A stretch of DNA of 33,501 nt from Chloroflexota bacterium (GTDB taxonomy: Bacteria > Chloroflexota > Limnocylindria > P2-11E). Positions 14,133 to 28,954 of this stretch are shown here, one piece after another; the stretch's first letter is position 1, and every line of letters begins with the position of its first letter. Location: contig VBDV01000131.1 of NCBI GenBank assembly GCA_005882765.1, positions 1 through 33,501 of the forward strand, read 5' to 3'. The notes under the pieces are model-generated. The model made no database searches. It worked only from the letters and a program-made list of their open reading frames with translations, and was not told the origin of the DNA. A program made the translations under genes and the position numbers.

Positions 14133-17100
14133 CTAGGCGGGCGTGCGTTTCCGGGTGAGCTGCTTCTGACGGTACATGGCGCGGTCGGCCGCTTCGACCA
14201 GGGCGTCCACGGTCGCCTCCCCGGTCGCGTCGGCCACGCCCCAGGCGATGGTCGGCAGCCGGTGGCCCACGCCAAGGGTGCTGTTGGCGATCCGCTCGGC
14301 GAGGCGGCGGACGATCCGCTCGGCAGTGAGGATGGGCGCACCCGCAAAAAGGACGGCGAATTCATCACCGCCGATTCGTGCCACGAGGTCGCCTTCGCGG
14401 ACCCCGGCTTGCAAAATGGCGCCGACGCGTACGAGCGCCTCGTCGCCCGCCGCATGGCCAAACCCGTCGTTCAGCGCCTTGAGGCCGTTGGCGTCCACGA
14501 TCGCAACCGACAGCGACGCGCCGTCGCGAGCCGCGAGCTCACGCTCGAGCCGCTGGAAGAAGCTTCGTCGGTTCGGCAGCCCGGTGAGCGGATCGGTCGC
14601 CGCTGCCGTCTTCGCCGCCTGATGGAGCTTGGCGACGCGCACCGCGGCGGCGACCTGATGCGAGACCGCCGTGAGCAGGTCCTCGTCCTCACGGCTGAAC
14701 GCGGCGATCCGCGGGCTCTCGACGCCCAGCGCTCCGATGCGCTCGTCGCCGAGCTGCAGCGGGACACACAGGACCGAGCGGATCTCGGTCGGACCGTAGA
14801 AGCGCGGATCGAGACGACCGTCCGCGACGTTCTGAAGCTCGCCTCGCTCGACGACCCACCAGCTGATGCCTTGGCCCTTCGGAAGGCGCTGGCCCACGTA
14901 CGACCCGGACGGGCCGACCGCGGCGCGGATCACCAGATGCTCGCCGGCGTCGTCGAGGGTGAGGAGGAAACCATTCTCGTAGCCCATTGCGTCGCAGATG
15001 ATCCGAAGGAGCCGCTCGGCGAGGTCGTCGATGTCCAGGACGGCGCTGATCTCGGAGGCGAGCCGCTGCAGGATCGCGAGCTGACGGCCATGGGTCTGAG
15101 CGCTCGCAGCGAACTGCTCGAGGAGCACGCCCGGTCCGGGCACGTCTTCGATGTCCTCGTGGAGGATCCCCGCGATGCGGCGGAGCTGGGCCGCGCCCTG
15201 CGCGCGGTCGCGCTCGATGAGCCGCAGGAACGCGTCGACCACAGCCGGATGGAACTGAGTCCCGCGACAGCGCAGGAGCTCGGCGCAGGCATGCTCGACG
15301 GTCTGCGCCGGCTTGTACGCACGGCGGCTGACGATGACCTCGAACGCGTCCGCGGCGGCTACGACGTACGCCTCGATCGGAACGAGATCGCCGCCCAGCT
15401 CGTCCGGATAGCCGGCTCCGTCGTACCGCTCGTGATGGCTCCGCACGATCGGGACGAGGTCTCGAAGCGGCTCGACCGCGTTGACGATCGACGCGCCGAG
15501 GATCGAGTGGCTGCGCATCATGACCCACTCGTCGGCTGAGAGCGAGCCCGGTTTGTTGAGGATCGCGTCGGGCACGCCGATCTTGCCGATGTCGTGGAGG
15601 AGCGCGCCGAGCTGGATGCGGCGGACCTGGTCCGCGGTCAGACGCATCTCCTCGGCGATCCCGCGAGAGAGCGCCGCCACCCGCGCTGAGTGGCTGCGCG
15701 TGTACGGATCGCGCGCATCGACGGCCGCCGCGAGCGCACGCACCGACGCGAGGTAGAGCTCGCGCATGCGCGCGAGGGCCTCGGCGTTCTCGATCGCGGT
15801 CGCAACGAGATTCGCGAGCGTCTGCAGGACGGCCACATCCTCGTCGTCGAGCGTCTTCGGGGCGTCCGCTCCACAGGCGAGGACCCCGACGAGCTTTCCG
15901 CGACTCTTCATTGGCAGGTACACCTCACTCGGTGCGCGGGACGGCTCGCCGCTCTGGATGACCAGGCTCGCCGGCCCCGATCCGACCGGCACGCGCGCCT
16001 CGGCGACGACGGCCTCGTCGCCACGCGCGTTGATGACGAATTCGAGCTCGTTGCCCCGCTCGTCGTATCGCGCGATCGAGAAGGAGTCTCGTGACACAAG
16101 CGTCGCCGCCGCGTCGAAGGCGAGGCGCGCGATCTCGAACGGGTCGTGCACCGCTCCGAGCTGCCACGCCAGGACGTTCAGCGCGGAAAGCCGCCCGATG
16201 CGTCGCTCGCGCTCTCGGCGCTCGTTCGCGGCGCGAAGTGCGGTCGAGGCCAGATCGGCGAAGGCGAGGAGCTCTCGGCGCTCGATCGCGTCGAACGATC
16301 GGTACGGATCGGTCGTGCCGACGGTGAGGGCCGCGCGTATCTCGCCGTCAAAGATGACGGGCGCGACCATGATCGCGTGCACGCCCACCTCACGGGCGAG
16401 CATGCTGATCGGCCGGTCGGGCTCGACGCCGCTGTCGGTCGCGTAATCGCGCATGACGACCAGCTCGCGGGCGACGACCACCTGCCGGAGCAATGGTCCG
16501 TGTGATATCCACCCGTGGCTGCGCGCTGGAGCCGCCTTCCCGAGAGCGGCCAGTGACCGGACGAGATCGCCCTTGACCTCATTGATGATCACCCACTCCA
16601 GGTCGAAGACCGCCTGCATCGTCTCGGCGATGCGATCGATGACGTCCTCGGGCATGGCCCCGGAGAGCTCGCGAGAAAGAGATTCAAGGCGGCGGCCCTG
16701 CTCGATCGTCCGCGCGTTGCGCAGCGCGATGGAGGCATGTGAGGCAAGGCCTTCGAGTGCGGCGCGGTCCTCGCCGTCGAACGGTCGTGTGTCAAGCCGG
16801 CCGACGGTGATCGTCGCCGCGAATTCGCCGTGCAGGAAGATCGGGACGCAGATCATCGCTCGCACCCCGATGTCGCGGACGGCCGGGACGGCCGTCGGAT
16901 CTGTGGCGTAGTCATCGACCGCCACCGTCGCTCGCGTGCGCAGCACAGCGCCGACGATGCCCGTCTCGGCGGGGGCGTGTACACCGACGACGCGCTCGCC
17001 CGTGCCGACGCCCGCGGCGATGTAGAACTCCTCGCCTCGGCGGACGTTGATCGTCGCGTGGTGGGCGCTCGCGAGAAGGAGCGCGCTGCGGGCGACAGTG

Positions 17101-17696
17101 TGGAAGAGCGCCATCGGCTCGGTCTCGGAGGCGATCTCGGCCGCCAGGCGCTCGAGGCTTTTGCCGCGACGGAGGGCGTTCTCGGCTCGGGTCTGCTCCG
17201 CCCGATAGCTGTCGACAGTCGCCGAGAGGATGAGGACGGAGATCGTGACGACGAAGACTTCGGCGATGACCTGCGGGACCGGAGTGGGGTCACCGACCGA
17301 CATGCGAACGGCTTCCATTCCGACGCGCGCGGCGACGTACGTCGTCATCGTGGCGACGAGGCCCGCTCGTCCGAGGCGGTACATGGCGAAGGCTCCGACG
17401 GCCAGAACGATCACGAAGGCGATGCTCCGCGGGTTCGTCGCGCTGCCGATCATCCACACAGCGGCCGTTACGAGGTCAGCGATGACGAGATGTACCGGGA
17501 CCTCGTGCAGCCGCAGGGCATGGCCTCGCTCGCGATCGAGTCGCCAGACCCGAACCGACGTCGCCACGAGCAGCACCAGAGCCGCGGCGGCCAAAGGGAC
17601 GATCCCCTGCCCACCGAGCGATAGCCAGGCGACCGCACCGACGCACGCGCCGAGGCGACCCACGAGCAGCGGATCGCGCGGAAAAAGCCCCCGCAC
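14133..17696 (-). CDS. Membrane GAF/HD-GYP/GAF/GGDEF c-di-GMP protein
   Basis: This 1187-residue protein carries both predicted halves of cyclic-di-GMP turnover. Domain order is: about six membrane helices (1-165); three GAF-like sensor domains (about 185-330, 335-485 and 495-645); HD-GYP phosphodiesterase (about 650-830) with HD at 701-702 and HHERYDGAGYP at 754-764; a fourth GAF (about 860-1010); and C-terminal GGDEF diguanylate cyclase with intact GGDEF at 1109-1113. An RxxD inhibitory-site motif (REGD, 1100-1103) lies five residues upstream of GGDEF. HD-GYP enzymes degrade c-di-GMP while GGDEF domains make it; which activity dominates cannot be told from sequence. The start is GTG with a weak ribosome-binding site, so a later start is possible. 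It follows the cupin gene by 95 bp. Confidence 0.93.
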   Translation of the reverse strand: MRGLFPRDPLLVGRLGACVGAVAWLSLGGQGIVPLAAAALVLLVATSVRVWRLDRERGHALRLHEVPVHLVIADLVTAAVWMIGSATNPRSIAFVIVLAVGAFAMYRLGRAGLVATMTTYVAARVGMEAVRMSVGDPTPVPQVIAEVFVVTISVLILSATVDSYRAEQTRAENALRRGKSLERLAAEIASETEPMALFHTVARSALLLASAHHATINVRRGEEFYIAAGVGTGERVVGVHAPAETGIVGAVLRTRATVAVDDYATDPTAVPAVRDIGVRAMICVPIFLHGEFAATITVGRLDTRPFDGEDRAALEGLASHASIALRNARTIEQGRRLESLSRELSGAMPEDVIDRIAETMQAVFDLEWVIINEVKGDLVRSLAALGKAAPARSHGWISHGPLLRQVVVARELVVMRDYATDSGVEPDRPISMLAREVGVHAIMVAPVIFDGEIRAALTVGTTDPYRSFDAIERRELLAFADLASTALRAANERRERERRIGRLSALNVLAWQLGAVHDPFEIARLAFDAAATLVSRDSFSIARYDERGNELEFVINARGDEAVVAEARVPVGSGPASLVIQSGEPSRAPSEVYLPMKSRGKLVGVLACGADAPKTLDDEDVAVLQTLANLVATAIENAEALARMRELYLASVRALAAAVDARDPYTRSHSARVAALSRGIAEEMRLTADQVRRIQLGALLHDIGKIGVPDAILNKPGSLSADEWVMMRSHSILGASIVNAVEPLRDLVPIVRSHHERYDGAGYPDELGGDLVPIEAYVVAAADAFEVIVSRRAYKPAQTVEHACAELLRCRGTQFHPAVVDAFLRLIERDRAQGAAQLRRIAGILHEDIEDVPGPGVLLEQFAASAQTHGRQLAILQRLASEISAVLDIDDLAERLLRIICDAMGYENGFLLTLDDAGEHLVIRAAVGPSGSYVGQRLPKGQGISWWVVERGELQNVADGRLDPRFYGPTEIRSVLCVPLQLGDERIGALGVESPRIAAFSREDEDLLTAVSHQVAAAVRVAKLHQAAKTAAATDPLTGLPNRRSFFQRLERELAARDGASLSVAIVDANGLKALNDGFGHAAGDEALVRVGAILQAGVREGDLVARIGGDEFAVLFAGAPILTAERIVRRLAERIANSTLGVGHRLPTIAWGVADATGEATVDALVEAADRAMYRQKQLTRKRTPA

Positions 17697-19447: not shown

Positions 19448-20110
19448 CTAGCGGGCCGCCACCGGCTCTCGAGTTGGCTCGCGCCTGGGCTCTTCGGCCT
19501 TCGCGATCGAGATCAGTGACTCCTTGCCCACGAAGATCTCGTCAATGAGACCGTACTCCCGCGCCTCCTCGGCGCTCATGAAGCGATCGCGGTCGACGTC
19601 GCGTCGCACCTTGTCGGCCGGCTGTCCGGTGTGGTGCGCGAGGATGCGCATGAGCTTCTCGACAAGCGTTTCTAGCTCTTTGACCTGAATGAGGACATCC
19701 GGGGTGTTGCCACGGAATCCGCCGGAGCCCTGGTGGATCATGATCCGCGAGTTGGGAAGGGCGTAACGCTTGCCCTTCGCGCCGGCCGCCAGAAGGACCG
19801 CGCCCATCGAAGCAGCCTGACCGATACAGATCGTATTCACGGGGGCCTTCAGGTACTGCATGGTGTCGTAGATGGCGAGCCCGGCCGTCACCACGCCCCC
19901 CGGCGAGTTGATATAGAGGTAGATGTCCCGCTCGGGGTCCTCGGACTCGAGGAAGAGGAGCTGAGCGATGATCAGGTTCGCCATCGTGTCCTCGACCGCG
20001 TCCCCGATAAAGATGATCCGTTCCTTGAGCAGGCGCGAAAAGATGTCGTAGGCGCGCTCGCCGCGCCCGGACTGCTCGATGACCATCGGCACGTAGTTCC
20101 GCGTCGTCAA
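19448..20110 (-). CDS. clpP: ATP-dependent Clp protease proteolytic subunit ClpP
   Basis: This 220-residue serine protease forms the barrel that degrades substrates delivered by ClpX. The catalytic triad is S101 (GQAASMG), H126 (IMIHQG) and D175 ([11 protein letters not shown]). The TTG at 20110 is chosen because a strong ribosome-binding site GAGGAGGG lies just upstream, giving [13 protein letters not shown]; an ATG at 20086 would also give a family-like N-terminus, while the longer frame to 20203 adds a non-homologous extension. A TACACT hexamer at 20150-20145 could be a -10 box, but no good -35 matches it. The gene is divergent from the histidine kinase operon across a 164-bp gap. Confidence 0.96.
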
Positions 20111-20274
20111 GAGCACCCTCCTCGCGCGTTGTGCCTGTTCAAAGAGTGTACGGCAGCCAATTGACGCTGACGCGCAATTTCCCGCCGTGATCGCGGTTGC
20201 CATTTGGGATCAGAGGTCTGGGCATGTCCACCTGACAGGCGAGCCAGTACGATTCGCGCCGAAGACAGGAAAGA

Positions 20275-22326
20275 ATGCGTAAGCTTCCGCGCTCGCTGCG
20301 CTTCTACGTGGCGGCGTCGACCCTCTACGCCGCGGTGGTCTTCTTCGCTGTCCAGTTCATCTACACGTTTCAGCTTACCCAGAGCGGACTGCTCGTTGCC
20401 CAGCGGGATAGCGGGGACGTGCTCTCCTCGATCCAGATCGTCTCTTTCATCGTCTGGTTGGGCATCAGCCTCATTGCGGCGGCGGTCATGCATCGTCTCG
20501 CCACCGCGCTCGCCGGTGCGAAGACCGCTGAGGAGGAGGCCAAGACCGTCGGCGAGCAGAAGGAGCAGGAGCTTGGCTCGATCTTTGGTCTCTCGGCGGC
20601 GATCGCCGGACCGCTCGACCTCGAGCAGATCGGCTCCTATTTCGTCGCTGCGATCCGAGGCGCTTTGCCGGCTGACATGACCCTTGCATTGATCGTGTAC
20701 GACGACGTTCTCGAGGCGTTCCGCACAGTCGCGACGGACGGCCCGCGCAGCGCGGCGCTCCGAGAGAAGAGCTACTCGAGCGTCGCGCTTCCTGCGGTCG
20801 TACGCACGCGCGTGATCGACCACCGGCAGTCACTTCTCCTGGTCGACGATGAGGCGCACCGGGATATGTGGAAGAGGGTCGTGGAGGAGCTGCCGGCTCT
20901 CGGGACCGCGAAGTCTTTCGCGGCGCTGCCCCTCATCTCGCGCGAGCGGCTCGTGGGAGCGCTCCTTCTCATCGGCGAAGGGACTGGCGATCTCATCGCG
21001 GACAAGGTCCAGCTCCCGATGATCATGGGCCAGTACGTCGCGGGCTCCATACACAGTGCGCTCTCCGTCAAAGAGGCCGAGGCGCGCGCGGAGCGCGAAG
21101 CGCTGGTCAATCGGGTCGCGCAGCGCGCCCGAGCGAGCCTCGATCCCGAGGAGATCCTCCGCGGCACCGTCGAGGAGCTCGCGAAAGTGCTGGAGGTCTC
21201 CCGAGCGCTCGTCTGCACGGGCGCAACCGAGGACGACCTCGCTGTGTCCTACGAGTGGGACGCGACCGGCGTCGCGCCGGTCGGGATCGGGGCAAAACAC
21301 GTTCCTGTCGCGCGTCTCGCGGCGCGGCTCGGACGCACCATCATCGTGACCGACGTCCGTAAGGATCGCCGGTTTACCGATCCGCGCGGGGCCGAGGACG
21401 TCATCTCACAGGACGTCGTCGCCGCGGCGGCCACGCCCATTCGCGTCGGAGGCCAGCTCGCAGGCGCGCTCTCCTTCTCGCAGGTCGATCGCTCCCGAGA
21501 GTGGACCGCCGACGACGTCCGTCTCATCGAGGCTGTGGCGCAGGAGCTCCGGATCGCGATCACCGCGGCCGAGGCCTTCGAGCGCCAGCGCGCCGCGGTC
21601 GTCGAGCTCGAGCGCTTGAACCGAGCGAAAAGCGACTTCGTGTCGATCGTCAGCCACGAGTTTCGCACGCCCCTCACGGGCATCCAGGGTTTCTCGGAAA
21701 TGATGGCAAGCGAGGAGCTAACGATCGACGAGATGCGCGAGTACGCCGGCGACATCAACAAGGATGCCCACCGCCTTAATCGGATGATCACCGAGATGCT
21801 CGATCTCGACAAAATGGAGTCGGGGCGGATGCAGCTCCATCGCGAGCGGCTCGATCTGAATGCGGTCATCAGCGACGCGGTCGATCGCGTGCGGCCGAAC
21901 GCGCCGCAGCACCCGGTTTCGCTGCGGCTCGACCCGCTCGTCGGCGAGATGAATGGAGACCGCGACAAGCTCATTCAAGTGATGGCCAATCTCCTCAGCA
22001 ATGCCGTGAAGTACTCGCCGAAGGGGGGCGAGATCGTAGTGAGCAGCCGCGCCGAGGGCGGCGCCGCGCACGTCGTCGTGCGCGACCACGGGATGGGCAT
22101 CCCCAAGGCCTCCCTCGAGACGATCTTCGAGCGGTACGGGCGGGTGGAATCGCCGGAAACGCGCCACATCCAGGGGACCGGCCTGGGCCTCCCGATCGTT
22201 CGCCAGATCGTGCACCTCCACGGAGGGACGGTGTGGGCGGAGAGCAGCGTCGGCGAGGGCTCGGTCTTTCACGTCACGTTGCCGCGCGCGGCTGCGGGCA
22301 CGGCCGCTGCCGAGGCCGCGTCGTGA
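20275..22326 (+). CDS. Membrane sensor histidine kinase with two GAF domains
   Basis: This 683-residue kinase has two N-terminal helices (about residues 8-32 and 45-70), two GAF-like domains (about 110-270 and 280-440), a HisKA dimerisation domain and a HATPase domain. The phospho-acceptor is H461 within SHEFRTPLTG. The ATPase domain shows the N-box NLLSNAVKYSP, DHGMGIP and GTGLGLPIV. The helices are separated by only a short segment, so sensing is probably by the GAF domains or the membrane rather than a large external domain. An AGGAAAG ribosome-binding site precedes the ATG. Its TGA overlaps the GTG of the following response regulator, marking an operon of three signalling genes. Confidence 0.94.
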   Translation: MRKLPRSLRFYVAASTLYAAVVFFAVQFIYTFQLTQSGLLVAQRDSGDVLSSIQIVSFIVWLGISLIAAAVMHRLATALAGAKTAEEEAKTVGEQKEQELGSIFGLSAAIAGPLDLEQIGSYFVAAIRGALPADMTLALIVYDDVLEAFRTVATDGPRSAALREKSYSSVALPAVVRTRVIDHRQSLLLVDDEAHRDMWKRVVEELPALGTAKSFAALPLISRERLVGALLLIGEGTGDLIADKVQLPMIMGQYVAGSIHSALSVKEAEARAEREALVNRVAQRARASLDPEEILRGTVEELAKVLEVSRALVCTGATEDDLAVSYEWDATGVAPVGIGAKHVPVARLAARLGRTIIVTDVRKDRRFTDPRGAEDVISQDVVAAAATPIRVGGQLAGALSFSQVDRSREWTADDVRLIEAVAQELRIAITAAEAFERQRAAVVELERLNRAKSDFVSIVSHEFRTPLTGIQGFSEMMASEELTIDEMREYAGDINKDAHRLNRMITEMLDLDKMESGRMQLHRERLDLNAVISDAVDRVRPNAPQHPVSLRLDPLVGEMNGDRDKLIQVMANLLSNAVKYSPKGGEIVVSSRAEGGAAHVVVRDHGMGIPKASLETIFERYGRVESPETRHIQGTGLGLPIVRQIVHLHGGTVWAESSVGEGSVFHVTLPRAAAGTAAAEAAS

Positions 22327-22688
22327 GCAAGGTCGTCTTCTGCGAGGACGACCCAATGATCCAAAAGCTCGTGCGAGCCGCGCTGCGTTCGACGAGCCAC
22401 GAGGTGCACGTCGCTGAAAACGGGAAACTGTGCCTCGCCCTGATTGACGAGGTCCGTCCTGACGTAGTCTTCAGCGACGTCATGATGCCCGAGATGGATG
22501 GCTTTGGTGTGGCTGATGCGATGCGCGCGAGACCCGCTCTCGCGCACATTCCGATCGTGTTCATGACGGCGTCGGTGCAACGCGAGCAGATCGAAGAGTG
22601 CTTCCGCCACGGGGCCGCCGGACACCTCGCCAAACCATTCACGATGACCGAGCTTCGCGCTCGCGTCGCGCAGTTCTTCAAGAACTAG
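22323..22688 (+). CDS. Single-domain response regulator
   Basis: This 121-residue CheY-like receiver has no output domain. The acidic pocket is at E8-D9-D10, the phospho-acceptor is D52 (FSDVMMPEMDG), the switch Thr is T82 and the conserved Lys is K104 (AKPF). The GTG start overlaps the kinase stop codon, and its TAG overlaps the GTG of the next gene, so the three are coupled. It is the likely direct target of the upstream kinase, and may pass the phosphate on or compete with the receiver of the next protein. Confidence 0.93.
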   Translation: MSKVVFCEDDPMIQKLVRAALRSTSHEVHVAENGKLCLALIDEVRPDVVFSDVMMPEMDGFGVADAMRARPALAHIPIVFMTASVQREQIEECFRHGAAGHLAKPFTMTELRARVAQFFKN

Positions 22689-23836
22689 TGCCGGGAGAAC
22701 GCATCCTCTTCGTCGATGACGAAGAGCAGATCCGCAAGCTGCTGTCGACCTGGCTGACGCGCCACGGGTATGAGATCAGCGTGGCGAACGATGGCTGGGA
22801 GGCTCTGAAAACGATTCGCGCGAAGGCCCCCGACCTCGTCATCACCGACGTGAACATGCCGAACATGAACGGTCTGGAGCTCACGCGGCGCATGCGCGCG
22901 GACCACCGCACCGCGCGGATCCCCGTGATCATGCTGTCGGCGCGCAAGCAGGCGGACGACGTCCTGAGCGGTTACGCCGAGGGCGCGGACGAGTATGTCC
23001 CCAAGCCGGTCGAGATGGCCGTGCTCGAGGCGAAGATCGAGGTCCTGATCAAGCGGTTTCGGACGACGAAGGGCGGCGAGGCAGCCGGGAAGCGTGGCGG
23101 CAACGTCGTCCTTTTCCTGCACGCCAAGGGCGGGGTGGGCTGCACCACGCTCGCCGTGAACGCGGCGGTCGCCCTCGCCGCGACGACGATCTATCGAGTG
23201 ACCCTTCTCGACCTCAACCTCGAATTCGGGAACGCCCCGATGCTGATGAATCTGACCTCACCACGCACGCTCGCGGACCTCGCTGAAAACGCGCACGAGC
23301 AGCTCGACGAGACAACGTTTGGGAGCTACCTCGAGCAGGACCGCAGCGGGGTGCGTGTTCTCGCCGGCTGCGACCTACCGGAACGCGCCGAGCTCGTCAC
23401 GGTTCCCGCGGTGCAGCAGGCGGTCGATCTCCTTCAGAAGCAATCGGACTACGTCGTCGTCGACGCGCCCGCGAGCTTCTCGCAGCATGTCCTCGCCGTG
23501 CTCGACTCGACCGACGCGGTCGTGGTCGTGACCGCCGCGCACCTGCCCTCGCTCAAGGCGACAAAGCAGGCGCTCGAGGTGCTCGAGAAGCTCTCCTTTC
23601 CGACGGAGCGCACCGTTCTCGTCGTGAACCGGACGAGCGCGGCCGGCGTGGAGATGGACCATGTCGCCCGGTTCTTCAATCGCAAGCCCGACGTCGTGGT
23701 CCCGCACACCGAGGCTGCCGACGACGCCGCCGATCGGGGCCGGCCACTCACCGTCCTCCACCCCGACAGCGCCGCGTCAAAGGTCGTGCGCGACCTCGCG
23801 GCACGGATCGCGGTCGCGGCTCCTGCGGGCAGGTAG
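22688..23836 (+). CDS. Receiver–CpaE/MinD-like ATPase fusion
   Basis: This 382-residue protein has two domains. Residues 1-125 are a complete receiver: D10-D11, acceptor D54 (ITDVNMPNMNG), S84 and K106. Residues about 138-382 form a deviant-Walker ParA/MinD ATPase with KGGVGCTT at 147-154, LLDLNLEFG and VVVDAPASF motifs. This matches the CpaE/TadZ architecture, where the ATPase positions pili at a pole, but in most TadZ proteins the receiver is degenerate while here it is intact. No tad/cpa pilus genes are in the window. The GTG at 22688 overlaps the previous stop; an upstream in-frame extension into the regulator gene is rejected. It ends 2 bp from the convergent glycosyltransferase gene. 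Confidence 0.92.
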   Translation: MPGERILFVDDEEQIRKLLSTWLTRHGYEISVANDGWEALKTIRAKAPDLVITDVNMPNMNGLELTRRMRADHRTARIPVIMLSARKQADDVLSGYAEGADEYVPKPVEMAVLEAKIEVLIKRFRTTKGGEAAGKRGGNVVLFLHAKGGVGCTTLAVNAAVALAATTIYRVTLLDLNLEFGNAPMLMNLTSPRTLADLAENAHEQLDETTFGSYLEQDRSGVRVLAGCDLPERAELVTVPAVQQAVDLLQKQSDYVVVDAPASFSQHVLAVLDSTDAVVVVTAAHLPSLKATKQALEVLEKLSFPTERTVLVVNRTSAAGVEMDHVARFFNRKPDVVVPHTEAADDAADRGRPLTVLHPDSAASKVVRDLAARIAVAAPAGR

Positions 23837-23838
23837 CG

Positions 23839-24981
23839 CTACGCCGGCTCGCGGACCTGCAGCTCGATCGCGAAGAGAAAGAACGACGAGAACACCGTCT
23901 GCATCCCAAGGAGCATCGCGACCAGGGCGAACAGCGCGGGCCGGACCTCATTCAACGGTCCGAAGCCTGAGGCGACCCACGTGGCGGCGATCCCGAAGTC
24001 CACGATGAAGCCGACCATGAAGAGCACCGCGCCGGCAACCAGGCCACGCTCGAGGCTGAACACCCGGCGAAGGATGCCGAGCGTGCGATCTGGCGGCTGG
24101 AGACGTAGGGTGACGGCGAGCGTCTTCGCGTAGAGGCCGATAGCGAGAATCTGAAACCCGATCAACGTCAACAGCGCACCGAGGACCATGACGTGGATGT
24201 CGAAGAGGCGGCCGAGTACGACGACTGGGCCCGGCAGGAGCGCGACGAGCAACACCAAGCCGATGACAAGGAGGGCGAGACCAGGCACGACGAAGAGATG
24301 CGTCGGGCTGTAGAGCATCAGGAAGCGCAGGTGCCGCCAGCCATCGGGTATCGTCCGCAGCTTCGAGCGCCCGCCCCGAACGCGGTAGTTCACGGGGACC
24401 TCGCCGATCCGCAGACCCGATCGCGCAGCGTTCACGACCATCTCGCTCGCGAACTCCATCCCAGGCATCCGCAGCCGAAGGTCATCGAGCACATCGCGCC
24501 GGAACGCACGCATCCCGCAGTGCGCGTCGTCGACGCCGGTGTGGTAGAGAAGGTTGAGCAGCCCTGAGAGAATCGGGCTCCCGATGTGCCGGTGGGTCCA
24601 CGGCATCGCACCAGGCTCCAGGTGTCCTTTGAATCGCGAGCCCATCACGAACTGGTCCCCGTCTCTGATGCGATCGAGGAAAGCGGGAAGCGCCGCAAAA
24701 TCGTACGAGCCGTCCGCGTCGGCCATGACGATCACGTCGCCCGCGGCCGCGGCGAACCCGGCCATGTACGCGGCGCCATATCCGCGGCGGCGCTCGCGCA
24801 CCACGCGCGCGCCCGCGGACGCCGCGACCTCGGCGGACCCGTCGGTGGACCCGTTATCGACGACGATGACTTCGCCGGCGACACCGGCTTCTTCCATCGC
24901 GTGGAGCGCTTCACGGACGACGGCGGCAACGCTCTCGATCTCGTTGAGGCACGGAAGGATCACCGACACGCCTTCGTTCAC
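23839..24981 (-). CDS. Family 2 glycosyltransferase, GtrB/DPM1-like
   Basis: This 380-residue polyprenyl-phosphate glycosyltransferase-like protein has a GT-A catalytic domain at residues 1-235. The nucleotide-binding VDNGSTDGS segment and the metal-binding DADG (88-91) are present. Four C-terminal helices (about 235-370) anchor it in the membrane. Such enzymes transfer a sugar from a nucleotide donor to a polyprenyl phosphate for envelope glycans or protein glycosylation. The acceptor and sugar are not evident, and no cognate membrane C-type transferase lies next to it. The gene converges on the receiver–CpaE gene with stops 2 bp apart, leaving no room for a separate terminator. A 236-bp gap to tig shows no gene. 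Confidence 0.9.
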   Translation of the reverse strand: MNEGVSVILPCLNEIESVAAVVREALHAMEEAGVAGEVIVVDNGSTDGSAEVAASAGARVVRERRRGYGAAYMAGFAAAAGDVIVMADADGSYDFAALPAFLDRIRDGDQFVMGSRFKGHLEPGAMPWTHRHIGSPILSGLLNLLYHTGVDDAHCGMRAFRRDVLDDLRLRMPGMEFASEMVVNAARSGLRIGEVPVNYRVRGGRSKLRTIPDGWRHLRFLMLYSPTHLFVVPGLALLVIGLVLLVALLPGPVVVLGRLFDIHVMVLGALLTLIGFQILAIGLYAKTLAVTLRLQPPDRTLGILRRVFSLERGLVAGAVLFMVGFIVDFGIAATWVASGFGPLNEVRPALFALVAMLLGMQTVFSSFFLFAIELQVREPA

Positions 24982-25217
24982 CGGGTGAGGCTATCAGTCG
25001 TTACGCGGGCGAAACCCTATGCGAAGGCACCTCATGTCGGTCCTTCTCCAAGCGCCCGCGGATCGCCGACAGACTGAGCACATCCGCGATGTGGTGCGCC
25101 GCGCGCGATCAGCAACCTCGCGCTGGCCAGACGCCCGACGATCAGCCACCGCGGCGCTGGGGTTACAACGCGAACGGCATGAGAATGCTAGCGACGAGCG
25201 GCAAAAACCGCCCCACG

Positions 25218-28033: not shown

Positions 28034-28954
28034 ATGGCGGCACGCGTCCTGGTGGTGGAGGACGACGAGGCGACCCGCGGCGCGCTGCGCGCGCTCCTCG
28101 ACGATGCGGGCTACGTCTGCGACGAGGTCGGCGACGGCGAGCGCGCCGTCGCTGTGATGCGCGATGCGCGGTTTGACCTCGTCCTTCTCGATCTCGGCCT
28201 ACCCGGAATGTCCGGTGCGGAAGTTCACCGGCAGCTGCGTCAAGACCCGCGCACGCGCTTTCTGCCGATCGTCTTTCTTACCGCTCATTCCGACCGCCAG
28301 ACCAAGCTCGCCGAGCTCGAGGCCGGCGCCGAAGACTTCATCACCAAGCCCTACGACGCCGACGAGCTCCTGGCGCGAGTGGGAGCGGCGGTGCGTCGCT
28401 GGAGCGGGATGCGGAACGTCAACCCGCTGTCCGGGCTTCCTGGCAACGCGACCATCACCGAAGAGCTCGAGACGCGCCTCGCGCGCGGGGAGCATTTCGC
28501 GCTGCTCTACGTGGACATCGACCGCTTCAAGGAGTTCAACGACCACTACGGATTCACGCGAGGAGACCGCGTGATCACGATGCTTGCGGAGATCCTGATT
28601 CACGCCGCCGGCTCGGACCAGCGCTTCGTCGGGCACATCGGCGGGGATGACTTCGTGCTGCTGGCGCGAGCCGAGGAAGCGGAAGCGCTCGCAGAGGAGA
28701 TCACCGGACGGTTCGACGCCTCGATCCGCGCGCTCTACGACCCGGATGACCACGCACGCGGCTGGATCGAGGCCCGCGATCGTCGGGGACGTCTGCGCCA
28801 CACGCCGATCGCCACGGTCTCGATCGGGATCGTGAACGTACCGCCGGGCCGTTTCGACGGCGCGACCGCGGCGGCACGCGCGGCCGCGGAGGTCAAGGAA
28901 GTCGCGAAGCGTCGACCCGGTTCGGCATGGGTGGTCGATCGCCGGAAAAGTTGA
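28034..28954 (+). CDS. Response regulator with degenerate GGDEF (GGDDF) domain
   Basis: This 306-residue PleD-like protein has an N-terminal receiver (1-125) with acceptor D53 (LLDLGLPGMSG) and KPY switch Lys, and a C-terminal GGDEF-fold domain (about 130-306). The signature there is GGDDF (203-207), with Asp in place of the catalytic Glu. In canonical diguanylate cyclases this Glu coordinates metal, so activity is doubtful, and the domain may instead bind GTP or partners. No partner kinase gene adjoins. The start ATG follows a 91-bp gap after the oxidoreductase gene; tRNA-Leu begins 19 bp after its stop. Confidence 0.9.
   Translation: MAARVLVVEDDEATRGALRALLDDAGYVCDEVGDGERAVAVMRDARFDLVLLDLGLPGMSGAEVHRQLRQDPRTRFLPIVFLTAHSDRQTKLAELEAGAEDFITKPYDADELLARVGAAVRRWSGMRNVNPLSGLPGNATITEELETRLARGEHFALLYVDIDRFKEFNDHYGFTRGDRVITMLAEILIHAAGSDQRFVGHIGGDDFVLLARAEEAEALAEEITGRFDASIRALYDPDDHARGWIEARDRRGRLRHTPIATVSIGIVNVPPGRFDGATAAARAAAEVKEVAKRRPGSAWVVDRRKS

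Follow-up and report, generated by a model that had tools for sequence, protein, structure and literature searches.

A TadZ/CpaE-type protein as putative response regulator of a co-inherited sensor kinase in Chloroflexota

We describe a three-gene run in a soil Chloroflexota genome (assembly GCA_005882765.1), located on contig VBDV01000131.1 (C186), of which positions 1 to 33,501 were analysed and are referred to below as the window. The genes, all on the plus strand, encode a sensor kinase, a lone receiver protein, and a protein in which a receiver domain is joined to a CpaE-type domain (receiver-CpaE hereafter). Judged by its sequence, this last protein is a hub of the TadZ/CpaE type that has been turned into a response regulator, and it belongs to a conserved, co-inherited module. 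We read the operon, with moderate confidence, as a two-component system with this hub as its output, which would probably gate the assembly or placement of a Tad-type machine. The main features are the following:

20275..22326, plus strand: membrane-anchored sensor histidine kinase (Pfam domains and transmembrane prediction)
22323..22688, plus strand: lone receiver protein, 121 amino acids, GTG start (Pfam Response_reg alone)
22688..23836, plus strand: receiver-CpaE/TadZ-type protein, 382 amino acids, GTG start (Pfam Response_reg and MinD/ParA-type domain)
22703..23038, plus strand: receiver domain of receiver-CpaE, residues 6-117 (Pfam)
23093..23833, plus strand: MinD/ParA/TadZ-fold domain of receiver-CpaE, residues 136-382 (P-loop KGGVGCTT)

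A preliminary description of this stretch had presented the three genes as one coupled operon, and this proved correct in its frames, coordinates, and overlaps, with the layout kept across the genus. The kinase and the lone receiver overlap by four bases (GTGA), the TGA stop at 22324-22326 lying over the GTG start at 22323-22325. The lone receiver and receiver-CpaE overlap by one base (TAGTG), the final G of the TAG stop at 22686-22688 being also the first base of the GTG start at 22688. The one-base overlap is kept in all 11 same-genus genomes and the four-base overlap in 9 of them, the exceptions being one genome in which the kinase frame runs on and one with a damaged junction. A 412-residue frame from 22598 is merely the longest open reading of receiver-CpaE; the conserved start is at 22688.

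The last protein of the operon is of the TadZ/CpaE type: it has the MinD fold, it has lost the P-loop lysine, and its nearest paralogues sit beside CpaB, TadE, and TadG. It is filed here as TadZ/CpaE-type rather than as a pilus TadZ because it does not lie in a tad locus beside TadA. An AlphaFold2 model built with 25 sequences (predicted local distance difference test score 87, predicted template modelling score 0.65) best matches MinD-fold chains, with 3ea0 giving a Z of 30.3 and a root-mean-square deviation of 2.2 over 237 residues. Foldseek placed the Eubacterium rectale TadZ structure 3fkq at rank 4 with both domains covered, the orientation of the domains not being reproduced (template modelling score 0.46-0.49, root-mean-square deviation 16.6). 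When the whole-protein profile was compared with solved structures, the 60 matches listed were receivers, and the ATPase half was searched separately. A plasmid search returned weak general matches only. As to the C-terminal amphipathic membrane helix expected of a TadZ/CpaE protein, the model has a C-terminal helix at residues 362-377, and the best 18-mer hydrophobic moment is 0.37, versus 0.40 in the TadA-linked TadZ of contig C148.

The preliminary description had called this protein a MinD/CpaE-like ATPase. The MinD/ParA-type domain and the TadZ/CpaE type bear out the likeness; the word ATPase needs qualifying, as the canonical P-loop lysine is absent. The first lysine of KGGVGCTT is kept in the orthologues, and the P-loop lysine is replaced in 43 of the 44 receiver-CpaE proteins compared, including all 18 orthologues, where the position holds C, S, N, T, or A (R or C in the TadA-linked relatives). 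FleN and FlhG were among the close fold matches of the MinD-like domain, which brings to mind an anti-activator of their kind, with a MinD-like domain that sequesters a transcription factor under phospho-control and with gene expression as the output. The lost P-loop lysine and the kinship with tad-linked proteins speak against such a role, as does the lack of a FleQ-like factor adjoining receiver-CpaE when the neighbourhood is read by eye, and we consider it very improbable. In the receiver half, D10, D11, D54, S84, and K106 are invariant in the 18 aligned orthologues, window included. The earlier claim of a fully conserved receiver is therefore right as to the residues, but these are nothing special, since TadA-linked TadZ proteins of the class have intact receivers too (8 of 9). 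With the phosphorylation residues intact in 41 of the 44 proteins, intactness is the norm in the family, and it was rejected as a distinguishing mark.

A tree of the 44 receiver-CpaE proteins places the kinase-linked clade as sister to a group of four whose genes neighbour CpaB, TadE, and TadG (100/100). The TadA-linked TadZ proteins stand apart from it, as does a clade found throughout the class near SPFH/NfeD-type and ComM-type genes. CpaB and TadG neighbours were confirmed by Pfam; the SPFH, NfeD, and ComM names were read by eye from translations. In a wider tree across the phylum, from which L072 and L010 were left out for their very long branches, the window clade, L232, L222/L225, the CpaB-linked proteins, the CheA-linked proteins, and a few more form a 33-member clade (100/99), next to which stand L233 and L234 (99/97). 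The sister clades are tad-linked, with CpaB, TadE, and TadG at the 4 loci and with CpaB and a T2SSF protein at L222.

The kinase has two predicted transmembrane stretches at its N-terminus, near residues 8-30 and 48-75, followed by a weak GAF match at residues 115-234, and Pfam domains GAF (290-429), HisKA (451-517), and HATPase_c (561-672). Its HisKA domain contains an HEFRTP box with H461 and an ExxT pattern inside the box, which is a mark of kinases doubling as phosphatases. A kinase gene lies upstream of receiver-CpaE in 17 of the 18 orthologous loci; at the eighteenth, L054, the contig leaves 295 bases upstream, and this locus is hence outside the kinase count. The core of the window kinase is 61% identical to that of L232 and 53% to that of L225, its best paralogue in the same genome reaching 41%. 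When 49 kinase cores were placed in one tree, those of the window clade formed a single clade with L232 (family f30) and L225 (family f22), supported at 99/98, with the kinases of L233 and L234 next to it (93/89). All 19 paralogues from the same genome fall outside this clade, and the kinase tree mirrors that of receiver-CpaE. Because the f22 and f30 partners group with the window kinases to the exclusion of the paralogues, the trees indicate that kinase and receiver-CpaE moved as a pair and were co-inherited in no fewer than three families (f1, f22, and f30). For f9, pair inheritance is less well supported.

The distribution of the module was followed in 61 genomes, the window's own and those of 60 relatives. 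An orthologue of receiver-CpaE is present in 18 of them at 56-100% identity, comprising all 11 of the genus and 7 of the 17 other family members. At the level of the phylum, 26 of 400 genomes have a receiver-CpaE match at 1e-58 or better, and 17 stretches outside the class were examined around such matches. A uniform neighbour search was applied throughout, for a same-strand kinase within 3.5 kb on either side. It found one at 17 of 18 window-clade loci and at 10 of 17 loci outside the class, and at 0 of 4 CpaB-linked, 0 of 9 TadA-linked, and 0 of 12 class-wide orphan loci; since related loci are not independent, these counts serve as contrasts rather than as a test. Eight of the kinases outside the class lie upstream, namely 5 histidine kinases and 3 CheA proteins (L223, L225, L226, L228, L229, L232, L233, L234), and two are found only downstream (L224, L227). 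The gene order is PAS-kinase, receiver, receiver-CpaE at L225; hybrid kinase, receiver, receiver-CpaE at L223; GAF-kinase and receiver-CpaE at L232; and kinase and receiver-CpaE at L233 and L234.

Two other settings of receiver-CpaE genes were seen in the survey. In three f22 genomes (L226; L228:1843-6388; L229:1802-6203), a CheA with its own receiver, CheR, and receiver-CpaE follow in series, in some cases with a CheW or methyl-accepting chemotaxis protein gene upstream: a chemosensory cluster whose output is of the CpaE type. The separate class-wide clade (L182, L185, L193, L195) lies beside ComM-type genes and, in some loci, SPFH/NfeD-type genes; neither tad genes nor kinase genes occur there within 3.5 kb.

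For the window operon we propose the following scheme. The membrane kinase would sense a signal through its GAF region and autophosphorylate on H461, from which phosphate would pass to D54 of receiver-CpaE. Phosphorylation may then alter receiver-receiver contacts and, through them, how the MinD-like ATP-binding domains assemble or where they lie; these domains would determine the place or time at which a membrane machine is made. The Tad-type (type IVc) pilus is the likeliest such machine because the nearest kin are tad-linked, and the protein would in that case be a signal-gated second TadZ beside the housekeeping TadZ of the tad loci. Phosphorylation-controlled positioning had already been suggested in the preliminary description. 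What now stands behind the suggestion is an intact receiver in a CpaE-type protein, wired to a co-inherited kinase; phosphotransfer, the effect of phosphorylation, and the target machine we infer from sequence. CpaE/TadZ has been described as a placement and assembly factor, and its receiver termed atypical, in a study of the Caulobacter Tad machine (PMC13170226). The same study has six CpaE dimers modelled round the motor CpaF, with CpaE moving between states and with inter-dimer contacts likely made via the receiver domains (PMC13170226). By analogy, these contacts would be a natural place for a phospho-switch, and a phosphorylated receiver could make or break them. About a third of 3,780 Chloroflexota genomes encode a Tad pilus, without secretins, according to another study (PMC12488501).

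Several observations weigh against this interpretation, in particular against the Tad pilus as its target. Contig C186 has no T2SSF, T2SSE, RcpC, or TadE match, and the 3.5 kb around each of the 18 orthologues, to the extent that the flanks cover it, are free of tad genes. The preliminary description had stressed that pilus genes are not found nearby, which holds on contig C186 and loses weight as a distinctive feature, given that the nearest paralogues sit with CpaB, TadE, and TadG. As the CpaB-linked paralogues have no kinase in range, a locus linked both to a kinase and to tad genes is a near-absent find: L222 combines a receiver and receiver-CpaE pair with nearby CpaB and T2SSF genes and shows no kinase in the 2.4 kb examined upstream, and L234 has a kinase, with a TadA fragment some 4.6 kb off. 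TadA-type matches occur in 57 of the 61 genomes and RcpC matches in 59, all 18 orthologue-bearing genomes having both, and with both so nearly universal the co-occurrence of operon and tad genes is uninformative. At least 5 same-family genomes with strong TadA matches lack a receiver-CpaE orthologue. On the kinase side, a same-strand kinase is lacking in the 3.5 kb range at 7 of the 17 loci from outside the class, and the kinases of L223 and L224 fall away from those of the window clade, so that other kinases were recruited at those loci.

A kinase-controlled positioning of some other machine, such as a chemosensory array or the envelope or division machinery, by a TadZ-type domain recruited from pili, would fit the lack of tad genes near the orthologues. 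It would also fit the class-wide clade beside SPFH/NfeD-type and ComM-type genes (as read by eye) rather than tad genes, those f22 relatives, some in number, that come after CheW/CheA/CheR genes, and the continuation of the relatives' operon into genes for an MBL-receiver protein and a hydrolase. The tad linkage of the nearest paralogues argues the other way, and TadA and RcpC matches are present in 18 of 18 orthologue-bearing genomes, as in most others. We regard a non-Tad target as rather unlikely, if well worth keeping in mind.

The genome that carries the window has four TadA-type loci (C148, C11, C155, and C47), and the preliminary description had raised the prospect of a complete tad locus without its own tadZ, for which receiver-CpaE would be the ordinary positioning factor. 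No such gap was found at three of the four. C148 and C11 have clear TadZ proteins, and C155 likely has its own TadZ: the N-terminal part of its TadA frame is TadZ-like (hhalign 78%), and the end of the contig carries a TadZ copy 96% identical to that of C148 over 222 residues. These near-identical copies, L009:4041-5312 (C148) and L012:1-668 (C155), may be a duplicate or come from a second strain in the metagenome-assembled genome. At C47, the gene in the TadZ position encodes 257 amino acids, has no Pfam match, and reaches an hhalign probability of 5.8%, its kinship with TadZ being unproven. C47 also carries relatives of the TadE and TadG found beside the tad-linked paralogues. Receiver-CpaE could on these grounds be the displaced TadZ of one of the genome's own tad systems, most plausibly C47, with the kinase regulating that pilus. 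However, patterns resembling a P-loop and a Walker B motif can be made out by eye in the 257-residue gene product, and TadA matches of the C47 score class (by score, not orthology) occur in family members without a receiver-CpaE orthologue. With clear TadZ proteins at C148 and C11 and two candidates at C155, displacement appears improbable. A Flp-type pilin suspected beside L238 found no Pfam support and was left unused.

The lone receiver has E8, D9, D10, D52, T82, and K104 invariant in 13 aligned sequences. It is present in 14 of the 17 orthologous operons with upstream sequence, and it is missing from three genomes of one sister genus, in which the kinase directly precedes receiver-CpaE. 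We take it to be accessory for that reason. Locus L049 (about position 1178, genome G002), where the kinase-receiver junction is damaged and the end of the kinase and the start of the receiver are gone, was counted among the 14. Within the two-component scheme, the lone receiver, probably phosphorylated at D52, may serve as a competitor or phosphate sink, the two roles proposed in the preliminary description, or as a reset branch, and it would be optional.

Two neighbouring features bear on the surroundings of the operon:

19448..20203, minus strand: clpP, divergent neighbour of the operon
25061..25114, plus strand: dienelactone hydrolase relic, 18 residues

The operon sits between tig and clpP-clpX. 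It runs divergently from clpP-clpX in the window, and likewise at every orthologous locus whose flank is long enough to tell. This arrangement, with a weak match of the lone receiver to the NCBIfam CpdR model (52.2 bits, below the cut-off of 180), could suggest that the lone receiver acts like CpdR, as an adaptor of ClpXP under phospho-control, and that receiver-CpaE places the protease. An empty-site test was made on 14 genomes without a close orthologue. clpX was found in 12 of these; tig, clpP, and clpX are adjacent in 11, and the twelfth, G015, has a hydrolase gene alone in the gap. G012 and G023 gave no clpX match and were left unjudged, and the absence of the operon there may be assembly loss. 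Insertion or loss at the tig/clpP-clpX site means that closeness to clpXP is no argument for a protease function, and a functional link drawn from proximity was rejected. Given also that 3 of 17 operons have lost the lone receiver and that its CpdR score is generic, the adaptor explanation is hardly credible.

In the relatives, the operon runs on at its other end, with an MBL-receiver gene at 9 of 18 loci, a dienelactone hydrolase gene in many genomes, or the two together. At L076:8303-9616, L073:8613-9929, and L107:7098-8417, an MBL-fold hydrolase fused to a receiver lies directly 3' of receiver-CpaE, and the MBL-receiver protein is a possible further output of the same kinase. In the window, at 23839-25114, the MBL-receiver and hydrolase genes are gone; a minus-strand glycosyltransferase gene stands there, and the 18-residue hydrolase relic is left. 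Further out, enzymes of cyclic di-GMP by their domains flank the operon on both sides (GAF-HD-GAF-GGDEF at 14133-17696 and receiver-GGDEF at 28034-28954).

The module shares features with several known systems. Like the TadZ/CpaE hubs of Caulobacter (CpaE), Eubacterium rectale, and Aggregatibacter (TadZ), receiver-CpaE has an N-terminal receiver and, after it, a MinD/ParA-type domain whose P-loop is deviant; unlike them, it lies outside a tad locus and beside its own co-inherited histidine kinase, and its receiver keeps the phosphorylation residues, as do most TadA-linked TadZ proteins of the class. As in classical two-component systems, a HisKA/HATPase kinase adjoins an intact receiver in overlapping, co-inherited frames, whereas the output is a MinD/TadZ-type domain, neither DNA-binding nor a cyclic di-GMP enzyme. 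The relatives placed after CheA and CheR genes in three f22 genomes recall chemosensory pathways, although the window-clade kinase is a membrane GAF-HisKA kinase and not CheA. In the type VIIf secretion system, TsfV likewise has a TadZ-like atypical receiver on an ATPase outside a tad gene set, but it is an AAA+ ATPase in a secretion locus, and the available excerpt mentions no kinase (PMC11217815).

Our searches of open-licence PubMed Central papers turned up no report of a kinase acting on TadZ/CpaE. It is tempting to speculate, and we do so tentatively, that one TadZ/CpaE lineage in Chloroflexota has come to serve two-component and chemosensory signalling generally as a module for spatial output, in which GAF-HisKA, PAS-HisKA, hybrid, and CheA kinases would switch a MinD-type hub by receiver phosphorylation, and so set where and when a surface machine assembles, without transcription. 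With an intact receiver and a co-inherited kinase at hand, the notion of CpaE-type hubs as phospho-switches becomes directly testable, and the operon is a candidate for a pathway by which a signal would act on cell organisation without passing through transcription.

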